40,719 nt of DNA from an uncultured Caryophanales bacterium. GTDB lineage: Bacteria; Bacillota_I; Bacilli_A; RF39; UBA660. Under the pieces are notes generated by a model. That model worked only from the letters and a program-made list of their open reading frames with translations, ran no database searches and was not told the origin of the DNA. Shown here one piece after another: positions 22,551 through 29,055 of the stretch. A program made the position numbers and the translations under genes. Location: positions 1 to 40,719 of the forward strand of contig CAMOQR010000011.1 of the NCBI GenBank assembly GCA_946623125.1. Direction: 5' to 3'. The stretch's first letter is position 1. Each line of letters begins with the position of its first letter.

Positions 22551-23915
22551 TTATCCCAGTCTAAATGCAGGAGACATTCCATATTCACCAGTAGTTCCAT
22601 TATAATTACCTCCCGTTAAAACTACATAGACACTTGCTGATGAGTTATTTCTTGCTGTTCTCGTATACCAATATTCCGCCGTTCCATTGAATTTTTTTTC
22701 TGCTTTGGAATAGTTTTCTTCACTTAAATTGATAGATTTATAATAGTCTAATTGTCGTGATGATTCATATGCAGAATCGTTTGAGTAAAAACCATATGAT
22801 ACAATATAGTTTCCATATATTTCTCTCATTGCAAGTAAATATAGTTTATCTGTTGTTATATAGTTTTCTGTTTCGTTAGAATTATGGCTTGATACTACTC
22901 TGGTATCTATGATTGCATCTTTTAATACTTCTGGAAACGTGTTATAAATCGTATTGTTTACATATGTTCTTGCTGCACTATCTCTCCAACCACCATTAGA
23001 ATAATTAGATGAAATCCAATTTGAGTTGGATACTATATCTGCAAATTCTATTACAAATCCACATGCTGTTTGACTAAATGTAGAAGATAGGCATTCATTT
23101 TGGGTTGATTTGTTGGCAATTCTTAAGGTATGAATTCCTAAATTTCCCAAATCTATTGTTCTTGTATCTCCAACGGAATAAACATTTACATTTTTTTCTT
23201 TTACAGCCTTAACGATAGTTTCCCAACTATCTGTTCCAAAAGCAATTGGATCTGGGATTGGTTCTTTTATTTCTATATTTGATATAAATTCTATATTGTA
23301 ATTACAGATTGCATTTACTGTAAATGGTATTGTTAAAGTTAATAATAGTACGATATATTTTGTTTTTTTAACCTTAATTACTATAGTGCTTCCAATTATC
23401 ATTATTAATATAGAAATATACATTAAAAAACTGTTTCCTGTTTTTGGATTATTTGAGGTTACATTGTTTCCATTTGATAGGTTTACTACTAATTTTTTAT
23501 TATCTTGGTAAACTCCATCTTTAAAATCACTTTCTTCTACTTCTTTATGATATTTTACTCTTAAGGATACTGATTTTTCTTCTTTTGGTTTAATGATTTT
23601 ATCATCATCTGTTTCTAAAGAATAAACAATATAGTCAGATTCTTTTGTCAAACTACTTTCATCTAGTAAATATTCTTCATCTGATTCATTCTTAACTTTT
23701 ACTGTATATAAAGCAGAATCCCCTACTTTACTCATATTTAGATTTAAGTTAATATTTCTTCCATCAATTACAGGATTGCTTTTTTCTTTTGCACTTCCTT
23801 CAAGTGAGGATAGATTAATAGACTCAATTTTAATCTTACTTTCATCGCATGTCTCAGCATATGAAAGGATAGGAATTAATAATAAAAGTAGCATTACTAA
23901 TAATTTCTTTTTCAT
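22551..23915 (-). CDS. Surface protein A: Ig-like domain, NPKTG, second export signal, DUF6273 domain
   Basis: The 454-residue product is built in two halves. Half one: signal peptide (cut after SYA, residue 20), an Ig-like or beta-rich domain (about 21-150), NPKTG at 156-160, a helix (163-180) and basic KVKKTK, the layout of a sortase-anchored protein. Half two starts at once with another hydrophobic helix ending FTVNA (187-202), which looks like a second signal peptide before ICNYNIEF, followed by a domain of the DUF6273 type (about 230-454; GWRDSAARTYVNN, ITTDKLYLLAM, and the end GMSPAFRLG). Residues 1-205 are clearly homologous to the gene at 26606-27553. AGGAG and a good promoter precede the ATG. 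Function is unknown; the outer domains suggest adhesion or binding. See findings for the double-export idea. Confidence 0.8.
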   Translation of the reverse strand: MKKKLLVMLLLLLIPILSYAETCDESKIKIESINLSSLEGSAKEKSNPVIDGRNINLNLNMSKVGDSALYTVKVKNESDEEYLLDESSLTKESDYIVYSLETDDDKIIKPKEEKSVSLRVKYHKEVEESDFKDGVYQDNKKLVVNLSNGNNVTSNNPKTGNSFLMYISILIMIIGSTIVIKVKKTKYIVLLLTLTIPFTVNAICNYNIEFISNIEIKEPIPDPIAFGTDSWETIVKAVKEKNVNVYSVGDTRTIDLGNLGIHTLRIANKSTQNECLSSTFSQTACGFVIEFADIVSNSNWISSNYSNGGWRDSAARTYVNNTIYNTFPEVLKDAIIDTRVVSSHNSNETENYITTDKLYLLAMREIYGNYIVSYGFYSNDSAYESSRQLDYYKSINLSEENYSKAEKKFNGTAEYWYTRTARNNSSASVYVVLTGGNYNGTTGEYGMSPAFRLG

Positions 23916-23937
23916 ATGTACTCTCCTATTTTATTTT

Positions 23938-23966
23938 ATTATAGCTATTTTTCTTATTATTCGCAA
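23938..23966 (-). promoter_or_regulatory. Promoter of surface paralogue A
   Basis: Minus-strand TTGCGA (23966-23961), 17-bp spacer, TATAAT (23943-23938), just after the DUF362 terminator. Confidence 0.65.
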
Positions 23967-23969
23967 TAT

Positions 23970-24013
23970 AAAAAGAGACTTTTGACAAAGGGTATTTTGT
24001 AAAAAGTCTCTTA
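23970..24013 (-). terminator. Terminator of the 538-aa protein/DUF362 operon
   Basis: AAGAGACTTTT (23973-23983) pairs with AAAAGTCTCTT (24002-24012), extended by an inner ACAAA/TTTGT stem, then T residues on the minus strand. Confidence 0.88.
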
Positions 24014-24035
24014 TTTCATTAATCAATTATTTGTC

Positions 24036-24923
24036 TTATATTTCTATTAGCTCGTAATTTGTAGTTCCAAGTCCAATACTTTCTGCATATTCTGTTATAT
24101 GTCTTCCTACTTGTCTATCTACTCTTTCCATCATTTTAGTGTGTCCTGGATCATTAGAATTCCAAATAGCATCTAAGAATGCTTGGTCATTTGCAACCGG
24201 ATCAAGGGATGCAAATATACCAATGTCTTCCATAACTGGATCACCTTGATTACAGTCACAATCACAATCAACACTTATTGCATTTGCAATCGTTATATAA
24301 ACAATTGGTTTGTTATTTTCTTTTAAATAATCAGCAACTGCTTTAGCTGCTTCTGCCATTGATTCAATAAAATCTTTTTGTTCATAATCTACACTCCAAC
24401 ACTTATCTGGATCTTCTGTTTGACCACAACTATGAATGTATGCTTTTCCATTACGAGATGCAATACCAATGGATTGATTTTTTAAGTTTGCTCCAAATCC
24501 ACCCATTGCATGTCCTTTACCATGTGCTAGGTTGATAATAGAATCATAATTTTTAAAATTTTCTCCAATGATATCATATTTTAAATGTCTTCCATTTTTT
24601 ACTGGAATTTTAAACTCATTATCTTCATCCATGATATCAACTTCTGCAAAAGAAGTAAATCCATGTTTTTCTGCGGTTTTTAAATGATCTTCTTTATTAT
24701 TTCTGGAACCAGGATATGCTGTATTACATTCTAGAATTGTTCCATTTAATTCTTTTACAAATGGTCCAATTAAATCTGCTTTTAAATATCCTTTTGCTCC
24801 ATCTTCTCCTGTTGATACTTTTACTCCTATTTTTCCTTTTAATTCAACTCCAAGTTTCTTATAAATTCTTCTTAGACTATCTGTTGTAATTTCTTTTGTA
24901 AAGAATACTTTTGCTTTTTCCAT
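24036..24923 (-). CDS. DUF362 domain protein
   Basis: A 295-residue protein of the DUF362 family. Typical segments are GVKVSTGEDGAKGYLKADLI (about 33-52), TAYPGSRN, INLAHGKGHAMGGFGANLKN and the C-terminal VDCDCDCNQGDPVMEDIGIFASLDPVANDQA. DUF362 proteins are often linked to iron-sulfur or ferredoxin domains; here no separate 4Fe-4S ferredoxin domain is visible, but the cysteines in SVDCDCDCNQG could bind a metal. No signal peptide is present, so it is cytoplasmic. Activity unknown. Its ATG directly follows the stop of the upstream membrane-protein gene (no gap), and AAAAGGAG lies in the end of that gene, so the two are translationally coupled. Confidence 0.88.
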   Translation of the reverse strand: MEKAKVFFTKEITTDSLRRIYKKLGVELKGKIGVKVSTGEDGAKGYLKADLIGPFVKELNGTILECNTAYPGSRNNKEDHLKTAEKHGFTSFAEVDIMDEDNEFKIPVKNGRHLKYDIIGENFKNYDSIINLAHGKGHAMGGFGANLKNQSIGIASRNGKAYIHSCGQTEDPDKCWSVDYEQKDFIESMAEAAKAVADYLKENNKPIVYITIANAISVDCDCDCNQGDPVMEDIGIFASLDPVANDQAFLDAIWNSNDPGHTKMMERVDRQVGRHITEYAESIGLGTTNYELIEI

Positions 24924-26540
24924 TTAATTCTCCTTTTCGATTTCTATTATTTTGATTACAGTGCTTTCTTTATTATATTTTATTTTTACTTTATCATTCT
25001 CTTTTAAGAATGGTAATAAGTCTTTCTTATCTTTAATAGATATCTTATATTTATTATCTTCTGTATCTGTAATATAGTAGTATGTATTTCCATCCATTAC
25101 GACATCTTTTATTTCTTTTATTACTATTTCTTTTTCTTTTTTCGCACTTGTTATTTCTTCTCCAAATTCATTTAAGTAGTTTTCACTTGCTTTTTCAATT
25201 CCTTTTGAACTGTCTGTTACAACTACCTTTTGGTAATCTGCAACATCTACAAAAGCATACATTTTTACTAGCCCTGCGTTATCTTTTAAACTAATTAAAT
25301 AAGTTGGTTTTCCGTTTAGGTTAATTAGTAAAGGGAAAGTTGATGTATAATTCATTTGTTGTACTTGTCCTTTGGCAGAATCCATTGCGGAATATTCTTC
25401 TGCGCCGGCTACTCCATAGAATTTAGTTTCTTTCGTTCTCATATTTGTTAAGATAAATCCAATATTTGATTCATCTGTTAATACTGATGTGATTCCAGTG
25501 TACAAATAAATATCATCATCCATGGCTAAATAATTATACCCTGTTGTAGTTGCAACTACATCTTTTTGAGTGAAGATAGAATTCCAATAACCATTCTTAT
25601 ATTTACCCCAATCATTTACTTGTTCAAGGATTAAATCAGCCTCATATACATGATCAACCCATTTTGGAATATCTTTTAATTTATAAAACTTACTTTTTCC
25701 ATTTGTAGGATCTAGTATTACAATTCCTTTTACTTCTCTTCTTTGACTTATTCCATGATATTTTACTACGCTTGCTATCCAATATGGTTTTCCTTCATTA
25801 TCTATTTCAAAATTAATAGAATCAAAATTATAAAATGGATAACTAAATTGAAGTTTTCGATATAAGTTTTCATTGAATAATGCAGATGGTGCATATTTCA
25901 TTCCTTTTTCTAGTTTGATTAGTTTAGCTTTTCCATTTGTTGAATCTACTGTAATATATCCTGTAATTCCTTTTTTACGGTTTGTTAACCATTTAATTGC
26001 TCCATTATATTCTAATGGTGTTACTCTAATAATATCATCATTATAATTAATTTGTGTATAGGCATCTGATACATCATATTGAGATACTAATTCACTCATT
26101 TGTCCCATAACACGATCTCCTAACTTTTCTGATGAATCTCTATCAAGTAATGGTAGTTTTTGGAAATCAACTTCTTTTATTTCTTCTTGGAATGATTTTG
26201 TTGTATCTACTTCAATTCTTTCATAATACTTTTTTGCATTAAACAATGGTGAATTTATAATTACTAATAAAATCATAATGATAAAGTATGCTGGTAGTAT
26301 TAACCAGACTTTTGAAATTTTATATTTTGTATATTTTTTTCCAGACATTAAATCTTGAAATTTTTGTCCTGTTTTTATAATTGTAATACTTCCAATTAAT
26401 ATTAGTAATATTGGTACTATAAATGCATAAAAGCCAAAATTATGAATATCTATTGCTGGATATGTCATATAGTAAGATATTAATGTATATAGAATTGTTA
26501 TAAGTATTGCAATTCCTATTTTATTCTTATTTTTTCTCAT
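24924..26540 (-). CDS. Unknown membrane protein with large extracytoplasmic domain
   Basis: A 538-residue protein. The N-terminal part has three hydrophobic helices (about 8-26, 35-55 and 78-100), then a large polar region to the end, presumably outside the cell. The outer part has repeated beta-hairpin-like blocks ending in similar phrases (GYITVDSTNGKAKL, GIVILDPTNGKSKF), reminiscent of PepSY-type or other small repeat folds. I do not recognise a family. The ORF opens at a GTG within the ribosome site AGGTGA; the ATG at 26540 is better placed. An extended -10 TGATATAAT lies at 26558-26566. Its last codons carry the ribosome site of the DUF362 gene, with stop and start touching, which suggests that the two proteins work together. 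It sits between two paralogous surface-protein genes. Confidence 0.75.
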   Translation of the reverse strand: MRKNKNKIGIAILITILYTLISYYMTYPAIDIHNFGFYAFIVPILLILIGSITIIKTGQKFQDLMSGKKYTKYKISKVWLILPAYFIIMILLVIINSPLFNAKKYYERIEVDTTKSFQEEIKEVDFQKLPLLDRDSSEKLGDRVMGQMSELVSQYDVSDAYTQINYNDDIIRVTPLEYNGAIKWLTNRKKGITGYITVDSTNGKAKLIKLEKGMKYAPSALFNENLYRKLQFSYPFYNFDSINFEIDNEGKPYWIASVVKYHGISQRREVKGIVILDPTNGKSKFYKLKDIPKWVDHVYEADLILEQVNDWGKYKNGYWNSIFTQKDVVATTTGYNYLAMDDDIYLYTGITSVLTDESNIGFILTNMRTKETKFYGVAGAEEYSAMDSAKGQVQQMNYTSTFPLLINLNGKPTYLISLKDNAGLVKMYAFVDVADYQKVVVTDSSKGIEKASENYLNEFGEEITSAKKEKEIVIKEIKDVVMDGNTYYYITDTEDNKYKISIKDKKDLLPFLKENDKVKIKYNKESTVIKIIEIEKEN

Positions 26541-26557
26541 ATTAATCACCTGTTTCT

Positions 26558-26566
26558 ATTATATCA
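26558..26566 (-). promoter_or_regulatory. Extended -10 promoter of the 538-aa/DUF362 operon
   Basis: TGATATAAT on the minus strand, 17 bp before the ATG; no clear -35. Confidence 0.55.
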
Positions 26567-26571
26567 AATAA

Positions 26572-26606
26572 TAAATAAAAGAAAAAGAAGCTTTTTACTC
26601 CTTTTT
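26572..26606 (-). terminator. Terminator after surface paralogue B
   Basis: AAAAAGGAG pairs with CTTCTTTTT (one G-U) around a 7-nt loop, then CTTTTATTTAT on the minus strand. It starts at the gene's stop codon and is weaker than the others. Confidence 0.5.
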
Positions 26607-27553
26607 TACATCATACAACTATCACCTGTTCCATATATATAGGTATGATTTTCTTCAATACCATCATCATAGTGAATTAAGTCCTCACTATATAATGAAT
26701 TATTATGTTGTTGATAATACATGTAATTTGTGTTTGGTGTGCAAGTACCTGCTCCTTCAATAAAGTTTATATGATTAATATTGTATTTACTATGAAGCCA
26801 CTCATTCCATGTCATGTTTTCTACAAACTCATATTCTTTTGGTTCATTATATGTACCATACATTTTTTTTTGAATATAAAACTTTTTAAAATTTATTTTT
26901 TCTATTTCTACATTAGAATCTATTTTTATTTCTACTTTACATATTGCATTTGTAATCATTGGTAGGAATAAAAACATGGCTATTATGGTAAGAGCAAGTG
27001 TTTTTTTCTTGTTTTTCTTACTTATGATAAATATACTTAGTGATAGTATTATCATTATAATTAATAAGGTTAATAAAATATTAGAAAATGTAGTAGGATT
27101 TTGTATATTGTTATTATTTGATAAATTTACTACTATTTCTTGATTATTATTATAGATTCCATTTTGAAAATCAGATTCGTCTACTTCTTTATTATAACTA
27201 ACTCTTAATTGAATTTCTTTTTCTTCTTGTGGTTCTATTGTTTTATCTTTTGATAGAATACTATATTCTATATATTCTGATGTCTTTGCAAAAGAGTTTT
27301 CATCTATTTCAAATGGTGTTTTCTCTTCATTTTTTACTAATATATTATAAGTAATGGAATCTCCTACTTTATCCATTTCAATATTTAAATGGATTTTTTT
27401 ATCTTTAATTGTGGCTGGGGATTTTTCTATTGCAAATCCATTACTTGATATAGCATTAATAGATTGAATGGAAATATTATCAGAATTACATGTTTCAGCG
27501 CTTATGCATAATGGTAATAATAATAAAATGATTAGTAATAATTTCTTTTTCAT
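26606..27553 (-). CDS. Surface protein B: paralogue of A with a short Cys-containing C-terminal domain
   Basis: The 315-residue product repeats the plan of surface protein A: signal peptide (cut near SAE, residues 19-20), beta-rich domain with the shared blocks KVGDS, LRVSYNKEVDESDFQNGIY and VVNLSN, then NPTTF (152-156) where A has NPKTG, a helix (157-178), KKNKKK, a second hydrophobic helix ending MITNA, then ICKVEIKIDSNVEIE. The C-terminal 100 residues differ from A: MTWNEWLHSKYN (about 247-258), then Cys271 and Cys313. The Gly of a sortase signal is replaced by Phe, so sorting may be lost and the helix may be a plain anchor. The start overlaps the stop of the preceding surface gene (ATGA), so they are cotranslated. 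Function unknown. Confidence 0.78.
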   Translation of the reverse strand: MKKKLLLIILLLLPLCISAETCNSDNISIQSINAISSNGFAIEKSPATIKDKKIHLNIEMDKVGDSITYNILVKNEEKTPFEIDENSFAKTSEYIEYSILSKDKTIEPQEEKEIQLRVSYNKEVDESDFQNGIYNNNQEIVVNLSNNNNIQNPTTFSNILLTLLIIMIILSLSIFIISKKNKKKTLALTIIAMFLFLPMITNAICKVEIKIDSNVEIEKINFKKFYIQKKMYGTYNEPKEYEFVENMTWNEWLHSKYNINHINFIEGAGTCTPNTNYMYYQQHNNSLYSEDLIHYDDGIEENHTYIYGTGDSCMM

Positions 27554-29055
27554 AATTCTACTTGGTCATCCTTTTTTTCTTTTTTCTTGGTATATATTTT
27601 AAATATAATACATACACTTGCGATTAGTATTAAGAAGAAGATAAAGATTGATGATACTGTTAATGGGTTAATTGTAGTTGCCCATCTTGCTTCTATTGTT
27701 ACATTTTCGTATGGCATAGTAAATTTATTCGTACTAATACTTACTGTTCCATCTTTATTTGTTGTTAGGTCTTCTTCATTAAATTGTACTTTTTCTTGAC
27801 TGTCCGTTGTAACAGTTAAACCTGCTAGTTTTAAACCTTTTTTAGCACTTACTTTAAAAGATATTACTTCTCCTCCAGCCGCTCTATCAATTACTTCAAT
27901 GGTTCCATTCCCATCTGTTTTTGTACGAATATTATATTTAATATTATCTTTTGCAATTGTTACAGTTGGACGTAGTCCGGCACGTGGTATTCCTCCACAA
28001 TTTGTACTAGACATACATATATCTCCAGATGAGGAAACAAAATATGCAAAATCACTACCTTCATTAGAAGAACTGGTATAATTTCCTGCTAATGTTTTCA
28101 ACCAATAACTAGTATTCCATATCCATTTGTAATCATCCGATACAAATTGTTTTAAATCCCCTATATTACTGTATGATGTTCCATCTTCTTCTGTAGGAGA
28201 AATCTCATTAGATAACCATTGACTTAATGGAAGATGTTTTTTACTGATTGAATAAATTAAATTATCAAGATTGCTTATATTTAACATATCTACACTAGAT
28301 ACATCATATCCCATATCATTTAATTGATCTTTATAATCATATAAATATCCAACAATATAGGAATCATCTATAAATTCAATATTTGTATATCCATCCAAAA
28401 AATTATCATAACTTTTTACTAAATTGCTTCTATTTTGATACCCAGTTGGGAAAAGATTAAAAGTAGCATATATTGGATAATTAGCATTTCCTTTTTCTCC
28501 GGTTACTCCTCTTGCCAATTCATTTTGAAGTGCATATTCTCCTCTTAAATAATTATTAATAACCGTATAAGGATAAATTTTTATAGAATCATTTCTATAT
28601 GTTTTTCCTTCTTCCACATACTCTTCTCCTGGCACAAACATATAATATGCACTTTTACCTTCACGTAAGGCAAAACTTTCTATACCATCTAATGAATCCA
28701 ATTCATATTTTTCCATAATTTTGTTCATAAATTCATCATAATCTACTTGGTTACCATCAAAATAGTAAGTAAAATTTGAATAACTGGAACAATTTCCGTT
28801 TGAGCATTCTATCTTTTCATAGTATTTGCTAGGATCCAGTACAATTTTGTCGTAATTTGCTCCAACATATAAGTTATATTTGGAAAGCATTTTTACTTCA
28901 TTTTCATTACTATCTATGATGTAGAAGTGTTCATTTCCGCATGATATTTCACTACCTATGGTATTTAAATTACCAGATTCTACTTTACAATATTCTTTTG
29001 CATTTACAATTAGGGGGATAAATAAAATTAAAATTAACAATATTTTTTTCTTCAT
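27550..29055 (-). CDS. Surface protein C with InlB-repeat-like domain and C-terminal anchor
   Basis: The 501-residue product has a signal peptide (cut after VNA, about residue 19), a large N-terminal region without recognised family (about 20-300, several cysteines), a block around SYWLKTLAGNYTSSSNEGSD and GGIPRAGLRPTVTI (about 315-375) that resembles the end of DUF6273-type domains, a beta domain like the divergent InlB B-repeat (about 380-456, ending EARW), NPLTV at 463-467, a membrane helix and a tail KKKEKKDDQVEL. It is anchored in the membrane, exposed outside, with a possible binding role. Only a weak ribosome site (TAGAGTAG) is seen. It is first in an operon with surface protein B, overlapping it by four bases. 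Confidence 0.78.
   Translation of the reverse strand: MKKKILLILILFIPLIVNAKEYCKVESGNLNTIGSEISCGNEHFYIIDSNENEVKMLSKYNLYVGANYDKIVLDPSKYYEKIECSNGNCSSYSNFTYYFDGNQVDYDEFMNKIMEKYELDSLDGIESFALREGKSAYYMFVPGEEYVEEGKTYRNDSIKIYPYTVINNYLRGEYALQNELARGVTGEKGNANYPIYATFNLFPTGYQNRSNLVKSYDNFLDGYTNIEFIDDSYIVGYLYDYKDQLNDMGYDVSSVDMLNISNLDNLIYSISKKHLPLSQWLSNEISPTEEDGTSYSNIGDLKQFVSDDYKWIWNTSYWLKTLAGNYTSSSNEGSDFAYFVSSSGDICMSSTNCGGIPRAGLRPTVTIAKDNIKYNIRTKTDGNGTIEVIDRAAGGEVISFKVSAKKGLKLAGLTVTTDSQEKVQFNEEDLTTNKDGTVSISTNKFTMPYENVTIEARWATTINPLTVSSIFIFFLILIASVCIIFKIYTKKKEKKDDQVEL

Follow-up and report, generated by a model that had tools for sequence, protein, structure and literature searches.

Paralogous surface proteins with an internal NPxT motif, a second signal-peptide-like segment, and exchangeable tails in an uncultured Caryophanales bacterium

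The window analyzed here is a stretch of 40,719 nucleotides from an uncultured Caryophanales bacterium (assembly GCA_946623125.1, contig CAMOQR010000011.1, positions 1 to 40,719 of the forward strand). It carries three nearby surface-protein genes on the minus strand in the order C, B, and A, of which A and B encode the modular proteins described below; between B and A lie two unrelated genes, one of them DUF362. Gene A (22551-23915, 454 amino acids (aa)) and gene B (26606-27553, 315 aa) are both intact open reading frames (ORFs), and their products can be aligned over approximately the first 219 residues with 49% identity, beyond which the chains are unrelated. Both proteins have, in the same order, a signal peptide, an immunoglobulin (Ig)-like domain (D1), an NPxT motif, a hydrophobic segment, a lysine-rich loop, a second hydrophobic segment, and approximately 15 more alignable residues. 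The motif in front of the first hydrophobic segment is NPKTG in A and NPTT in B, while the second segment ends in VNA followed by IC in A (A202/I203) and in TNA followed by IC in B (A203/I204). The initial annotation had claimed that A and B share a signal peptide, a beta-rich domain, NPxT, and a second hydrophobic segment in front of unrelated tails, which agrees with the intact ORFs, the identity, and a family of approximately 60 such proteins; its DUF6273-like tail in A was likewise recovered by Pfam (E 3e-17). The tail of B has no Pfam match and contains an MTWNEW motif.

Gene C has the ordinary sortase-type form, composed of a signal peptide, an ectodomain, and a terminal NPLT sorting signal. 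The start of B lies within the final 4 bases of C (a 4-base overlap), and the two genes are probably in one operon. A terminator-like inverted repeat is located upstream of A, between A and the DUF362 gene (window 23965-24020). The features of the three genes are given in Table 1.

Table 1. Features of genes A, B, and C in the window; scores are those of the signal-peptide site matrix, and pLDDT is the predicted local distance difference test.
Feature	Position	Strand	Remarks
A N-terminal signal peptide (residues 1-20)	23856..23915	-	
A Ig-like putative anchor domain D1 (21-155)	23451..23855	-	single Cys at residue 23
A NPKTG sortase-type motif (156-160)	23436..23450	-	
A first hydrophobic segment and basic loop (161-186)	23358..23435	-	
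A inner signal-peptide-like segment ending VNA (181-202)	23310..23375	-	score 16.4 (first hydrophobic segment -0.3)
A predicted docking strand with Cys204 (203-217)	23265..23309	-	conservation; model strand, pLDDT 81-88
A variable tail (218-454)	22554..23264	-	DUF6273 at residues 292-453 (22557-23042)
B N-terminal signal peptide (1-19)	27497..27553	-	
B Ig-like putative anchor domain D1 (20-151)	27101..27496	-	single Cys at residue 22
B NPTT motif (152-155)	27089..27100	-	
B first hydrophobic segment and basic loop (156-184)	27002..27088	-	
B inner signal-peptide-like segment ending TNA (178-203)	26945..27022	-	score 9.5
B predicted docking strand with Cys205 (204-218)	26900..26944	-	
B variable tail (219-315)	26609..26899	-	MTWNEW motif at 26798-26815
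C, surface protein with one signal peptide	27550..29055	-	NPLT at 27658-27669, hydrophobic segment, KKKEKK at very C-terminus

The arrangement of A and B, called dual here, is found in approximately 60 proteins of many genera with the reading frame open throughout. Sixty of these proteins, from 315 to 2511 aa in length, were examined, and two (L045 and L077) were excluded from the family counts, leaving 58. At least two further full copies were identified in the same genome by profile search, with weaker ones besides. Profile matches, some short of the full dual form, were found in 33 of 145 sampled genomes of the bacterial family, and in a phylum-wide sample they were confined to genomes of this one family. 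The named records of relatives are uncultured genome bins deposited as Erysipelotrichaceae, Bacillales, Tenericutes, Firmicutes, or Bacilli, and the RUG isolate names among them, read as such, point to the rumen. Six relatives have three to eight sortases each; since two of them, of the same genus, have these sortases with no match to the dual proteins, the latter look accessory. No relatives were found in viral contigs or in plasmids, and an origin from a virus or plasmid was rejected on this ground.

D1 of A and B has no match above cut-off in Pfam or NCBIfam, the NCBIfam model NF033846 (Rumino_NPXTG) reaching 13.8 bits with B, below its curated cut-off of 23.5. Among 17 scanned members, the Choice-of-anchor D and HYDIN-VesB-like Ig profiles match D1 weakly (NF012200 in two members, best E 0.0018; PF22544 in one, E 0.0035). 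A PDB sequence search gave no relative and only chance-level matches to the hairpin formed by the two hydrophobic segments; weak Pfam matches such as Glucos_trans_II and HisKA_7TM were set aside as due to this hydrophobic hairpin. Widespread stand-alone proteins of 160-200 aa (L082, L096, and L021-L034) were also found; they combine a single hydrophobic segment at the N-terminus with a related Ig-like domain, and a strand directly after the hydrophobic segment (LNINGTANI-like) resembles the strand that follows the second hydrophobic segment of the dual proteins. By this resemblance in sequence, the dual proteins may be circular permutations of stand-alone Ig-like proteins.

The tails were assigned by motif to crude classes, namely, DUF285/PARCEL, DUF6273, InlB-type repeats, MTWEEW, and other, and the class changes at least 21 times on the D1 tree. 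For A and its relative L083, the shared part amounts to 68% in D1 and 2% in the tail, and for L104 and L105 to 60% and 8%, respectively. Tails are thus really exchanged on a constant scaffold, as the initial annotation had suggested, and the strand that follows the second hydrophobic segment is included in this scaffold. DUF285/PARCEL tails are present in 6 of the 17 scanned members. This repeat is described as horizontally distributed in the accessible part of a study of DUF285/PARCEL surface proteins (PMC2996958); the repeat is the same, and in the dual family it is the cargo behind the D1-NPxT-signal scaffold. Several relatives are of separate interest. L043 (255-3164, contig C10 of genome G000) has a tail of InlB-type repeats with an end that reads like a Hint/intein-type domain, and its NPxT is degenerate (NAFTG). 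The contigs of L071 (G057:C14) and L072 (G057:C2) begin with a near-identical scaffold end followed by partly different tails, as if the assembly broke in the repeated scaffold sequence. L076 (598-1239, G115:C10) is a tail-less relative with D1, two hydrophobic segments, and a terminal strand, in which both NPxT and AxA are lost.

NPxT occurs at the expected place in 51 of 58 relatives, against a chance of approximately 0.4% per protein, and [NSV]PxT in 55 of 58; the loop after the first hydrophobic segment is net positive in 59 of 60. An LPXTG-like motif, a hydrophobic segment, and positive residues, the elements by which a sorting signal is recognized, are therefore all present, and the NPxT segment looks like a sorting signal. 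It is followed in the dual proteins by the inner signal-peptide-like segment and by tails of ~110 to ~2,280 residues. As the signal is internal in this way, the proteins can be said to work like sortase substrates rather than to be standard members. Cleavage does not require that a sorting signal be terminal, since SrtB of Clostridioides difficile cleaves CD3392 with two CwpV repeats added at its C-terminus (PMC5569036). No C-terminal hydrophobic anchor was found in the tails of the 58 dual proteins. The genome (G000) has five sortase genes, one of which, encoding 328 aa, matches solved class B sortases (E 7e-41). At L039 (1225-3454, G000:C8), a sortase gene is followed by genes whose products resemble TasA/camelysin-type secreted proteins, and the same stretch also has a peptidase S26 match at C8:39898.

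The second hydrophobic segment has a basic n-region, a short h-region, and an AxA-type site with Ala at -1 and a small or aliphatic residue at -3. A site matrix was trained on the N-terminal signal peptides of the family, leaving out the same locus each time, and was applied to the 60 inner segments, the 60 first hydrophobic segments, and 39 other helices of window proteins, with the 5th percentile of the true N-terminal signal peptides (10.3) as the threshold for a pass. The median scores are 23.2 for the N-terminal signal peptides, 13.4 for the inner segments, 4.0 for the first hydrophobic segments, and -1.5 for the other helices; the threshold is passed by 47 of the 60 inner segments (that of A among them), 7 of the 60 first segments, and none of the 39 helices. 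Judged by its sequence, the inner segment is a signal peptide and not a plain helix, so the resemblance put forward in the initial annotation is upheld in the computable comparison that could have spoken against it. Signal peptidase I genes are present. A dual-protein gene in genome G057 is immediately preceded by a full signal peptidase I gene (L112, 1471-1986, G057:C14); this was seen in one genome only and was not used as evidence.

The origin of such a segment can be followed in L045 (1993-5283, G000:C8), a protein of 1097 aa that is a tandem duplication fused in frame. Each unit is complete with a signal peptide, a domain, and an NPKT sorting signal, and both read signal peptide then KSMTAVEYIESIASNN, once at the N-terminus and again after the inner stretch of NPKT, hydrophobic segment, and KKEKK. 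Since the two duplicated units read alike, the inner segment of L045 is a signal peptide by descent, and the protein illustrates a way in which inner signal peptides can originate. Only 2 of 60 proteins have a possible inner start with a ribosome-binding-like core, and the inner n-region of B lacks a start codon; an inner translation start was rejected on this count for nearly all members. A lipoprotein reading of NAIC was also rejected because Ile or Leu precedes the Cys in place of the Gly, Ala, or Ser of a lipobox.

The shared N-terminal part proposed in the initial annotation stands, but its end at NAIC does not, as both the homology and the join to the tail extend approximately 15 residues further, to a point after a beta strand. 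When different tail classes are compared, the position-wise similarity is above background up to +15 after the inner Ala and falls to background thereafter, and mostly hydrophobic residues occupy +4, +6, +8, +12, and +14, as would be expected of a strand. In 17 of 20 pairs with close D1, which are not independent of each other, conservation is higher in the strand than in the hairpin that lies between it and D1; in one such pair, D1 is kept at 83%, the hairpin at 38%, and the strand at 93%. In an AlphaFold model of A 1-238, the strand covers 205-217 at pLDDT 82-88, and in the model of full-length A, where the tail itself is not resolved, it has pLDDT 81-84; both models place it in the D1 sandwich. 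Nearly all PDB matches to Ig, PapD, MSP, and WxLIP domains cover model residues ~26-218, strand included, and extend to the C-terminus where the target is small (for example, 110 of 112 residues in 2e6j and chain residues 3-126 in 1msp), with middling Z values of 7-8.7 that speak for a common fold only. As the matches span this range, the strand appears to replace a late strand of the fold, with the hairpin as an insertion before it. By conservation and structure prediction, the first strand of the tail appears to belong to D1, and the released variable domain that the initial annotation had considered is less likely than a docked tail.

Short bridges at residues 18-20 and 198-201 are seen in both models and would fit parallel strands lying side by side, which would bring Cys23 near Cys204. 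Paired cysteines were scored when one lay at most five residues from the start of mature D1 and one at most three residues after the inner site. A Cys is present at both places in 24 of 58 proteins, at neither in 34, and at one only in none, and in all 24 Cys-bearing members, the Cys of D1 is its sole Cys. On the D1 tree, each of the two traits needs four changes, with no discordant protein. A disulfide between D1 and the tail (Cys23-Cys204 in A numbering) is thus plausible.

The observed architecture, its conservation across the family, the shuffling of tails, the signal-peptide likeness of the inner segment, and the absence of other anchors can be brought together in a model in which the A/B family consists of modular surface proteins made from one precursor, docking by the strand being a prediction. 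The N-terminal signal peptide would export D1, the NPxT segment and the following hydrophobic stretch would stop transfer and present the sorting signal, and the inner signal peptide would re-start export and bring the tail out. Signal peptidase I would cut after the inner AxA and sortase at NPxT, and the two cuts would remove the hairpin and leave D1 attached to the wall. The beta strand that fits the D1 sandwich would be formed by the first ~15 residues of the tail and would hold the tail on D1, helped in about two fifths of the family, probably, by the disulfide; as the tail is docked in this way, it would be displayed rather than released. D1 would then act as a reusable anchor in the wall, to which exchangeable outer domains are held by their N-terminus. 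That both cuts are made, with D1 anchored to the wall and the tail remaining docked, is the most likely reading and is held with moderate confidence. More tentatively, the family may represent a new anchoring strategy, in which an Ig-like wall anchor is split by a removable hairpin of sorting signal and signal peptide and receives its missing strand from the N-terminus of various outer domains.

Several points weigh against this model. No cut was observed, and we infer both cuts, the wall attachment, and the disulfide. Thirteen of the 60 inner segments score low, including that of B, which lies just under the threshold. The fifth residue of the sorting motif is G in only 24 of 55 proteins, which is looser than the textbook motif. 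The AlphaFold models were built from 17 sequences, without coordinates for contacts. The co-occurrence of the cysteines amounts to four changes on the tree with only one independent contrast on strongly supported branches, the parity of total Cys gives no support for a disulfide (12 of 24, uninformative), and a search of five genomes revealed neither a Thioredoxin_4 nor a VKOR gene. The remaining points fit a chain with no inner cut, which would remain intact as a hairpin of two membrane helices, with D1 and the strand making up one Ig-like domain just outside the membrane from which the tail is shown: the strand would be seated on D1 in an uncut chain as well, NPxT is lost in three members that retain the inner site, the tail-less L076 keeps D1, both hydrophobic segments, and the strand with neither NPxT nor AxA, and the inner +1 residue is often Leu or Ile, whereas N-terminal sites have charged residues there. 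A plain hairpin, however, needs neither the NPxT of 51 of 58 proteins nor Ala at -1 with a small or aliphatic -3, and the inner segment scores like signal peptides, whereas the first segment of the same proteins does not; the uncut chain is accordingly considered unlikely, though it is the foremost competitor.

A polyprotein cut at both sites, with D1 anchored and the tail diffusing away as a secreted protein, would also account for the inner signal peptides, for tails with no anchor of their own, and for the presence of sortases and signal peptidases. It would not explain why the first 15 tail residues remain conserved where the tails are unrelated and vary in step with D1, why the strand is modeled in D1, or why the lone cysteines are paired, and such release is improbable. 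Two genes run together by recent or erroneous fusion, the tail normally coming from its own inner start, is nearly refuted, since fusions by tandem duplication do arise, as in L045, but the same arrangement is open in approximately 60 proteins of many genera with almost no inner start bearing a ribosome-binding-like core.

Sortase systems are known to hold proteins by their C-terminus. The dual proteins resemble sortase-anchored proteins (LPXTG/NPXTN-type, with class B motif variants) in their signal peptide, ectodomain, NPxT, hydrophobic segment, basic residues, and genomic sortases, but differ from ordinary ones in that the sorting signal is internal; after it come a second export signal and a large outer domain, the C-terminus of which is free. 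The cytochrome bc1 precursor FbcH of Bradyrhizobium is a polyprotein processed by signal peptidase, in which an internal signal peptide leads to a second exported product. The dual proteins have this in common with FbcH-type polyproteins, while differing in that one half has a sorting signal, the second half is shuffled, and the halves appear to re-associate via a strand. The SlpA precursor of C. difficile is cut into two subunits that remain together; it works like the proposed model, with one precursor and two pieces associated at the surface, but the protease, domains, and wall attachment are different, and SlpA has no sortase signal. WxLIP (DUF916-DUF3324) of the WxL clusters also has an Ig-like surface domain, and 9i1y aligns to the D1 model over 122 residues with Z 8.5 and a root-mean-square deviation of 3.4; no Pfam match to DUF916 or DUF3324 was found at E<=0.01 in 17 dual-family members, and the likeness, as far as tested, is one of common fold only. 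WxLIP is described with two Ig-like domains and a C-terminal helix, and the accessible part of the source mentions neither an internal signal peptide nor tail swapping (PMC10599100). The open-access literature searched yielded no account of a sortase substrate that contains an internal signal peptide; the component parts are of known kinds, and the same literature gave no example of their combination, in which an Ig-like domain with swappable cargo contains both an internal sorting signal and an internal signal peptide.

The model makes definite predictions that can be tested, namely, two mature N-termini and a tail that is freed by deletion of the strand. If it is right, sorting signals and signal peptides that lie inside a chain can escape annotation pipelines. 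This lineage would also have reversed the polarity of sortase anchoring: the first half of the precursor would carry the anchor, and a strand, in some cases together with a disulfide, would keep the second half docked. If the split-anchor reading is true, proteins would be fixed to the wall by their N-terminus and swapped by recombination. In uncultured gut and rumen bacteria, the family would then provide a natural system of split-protein display in which the cargo can be exchanged.

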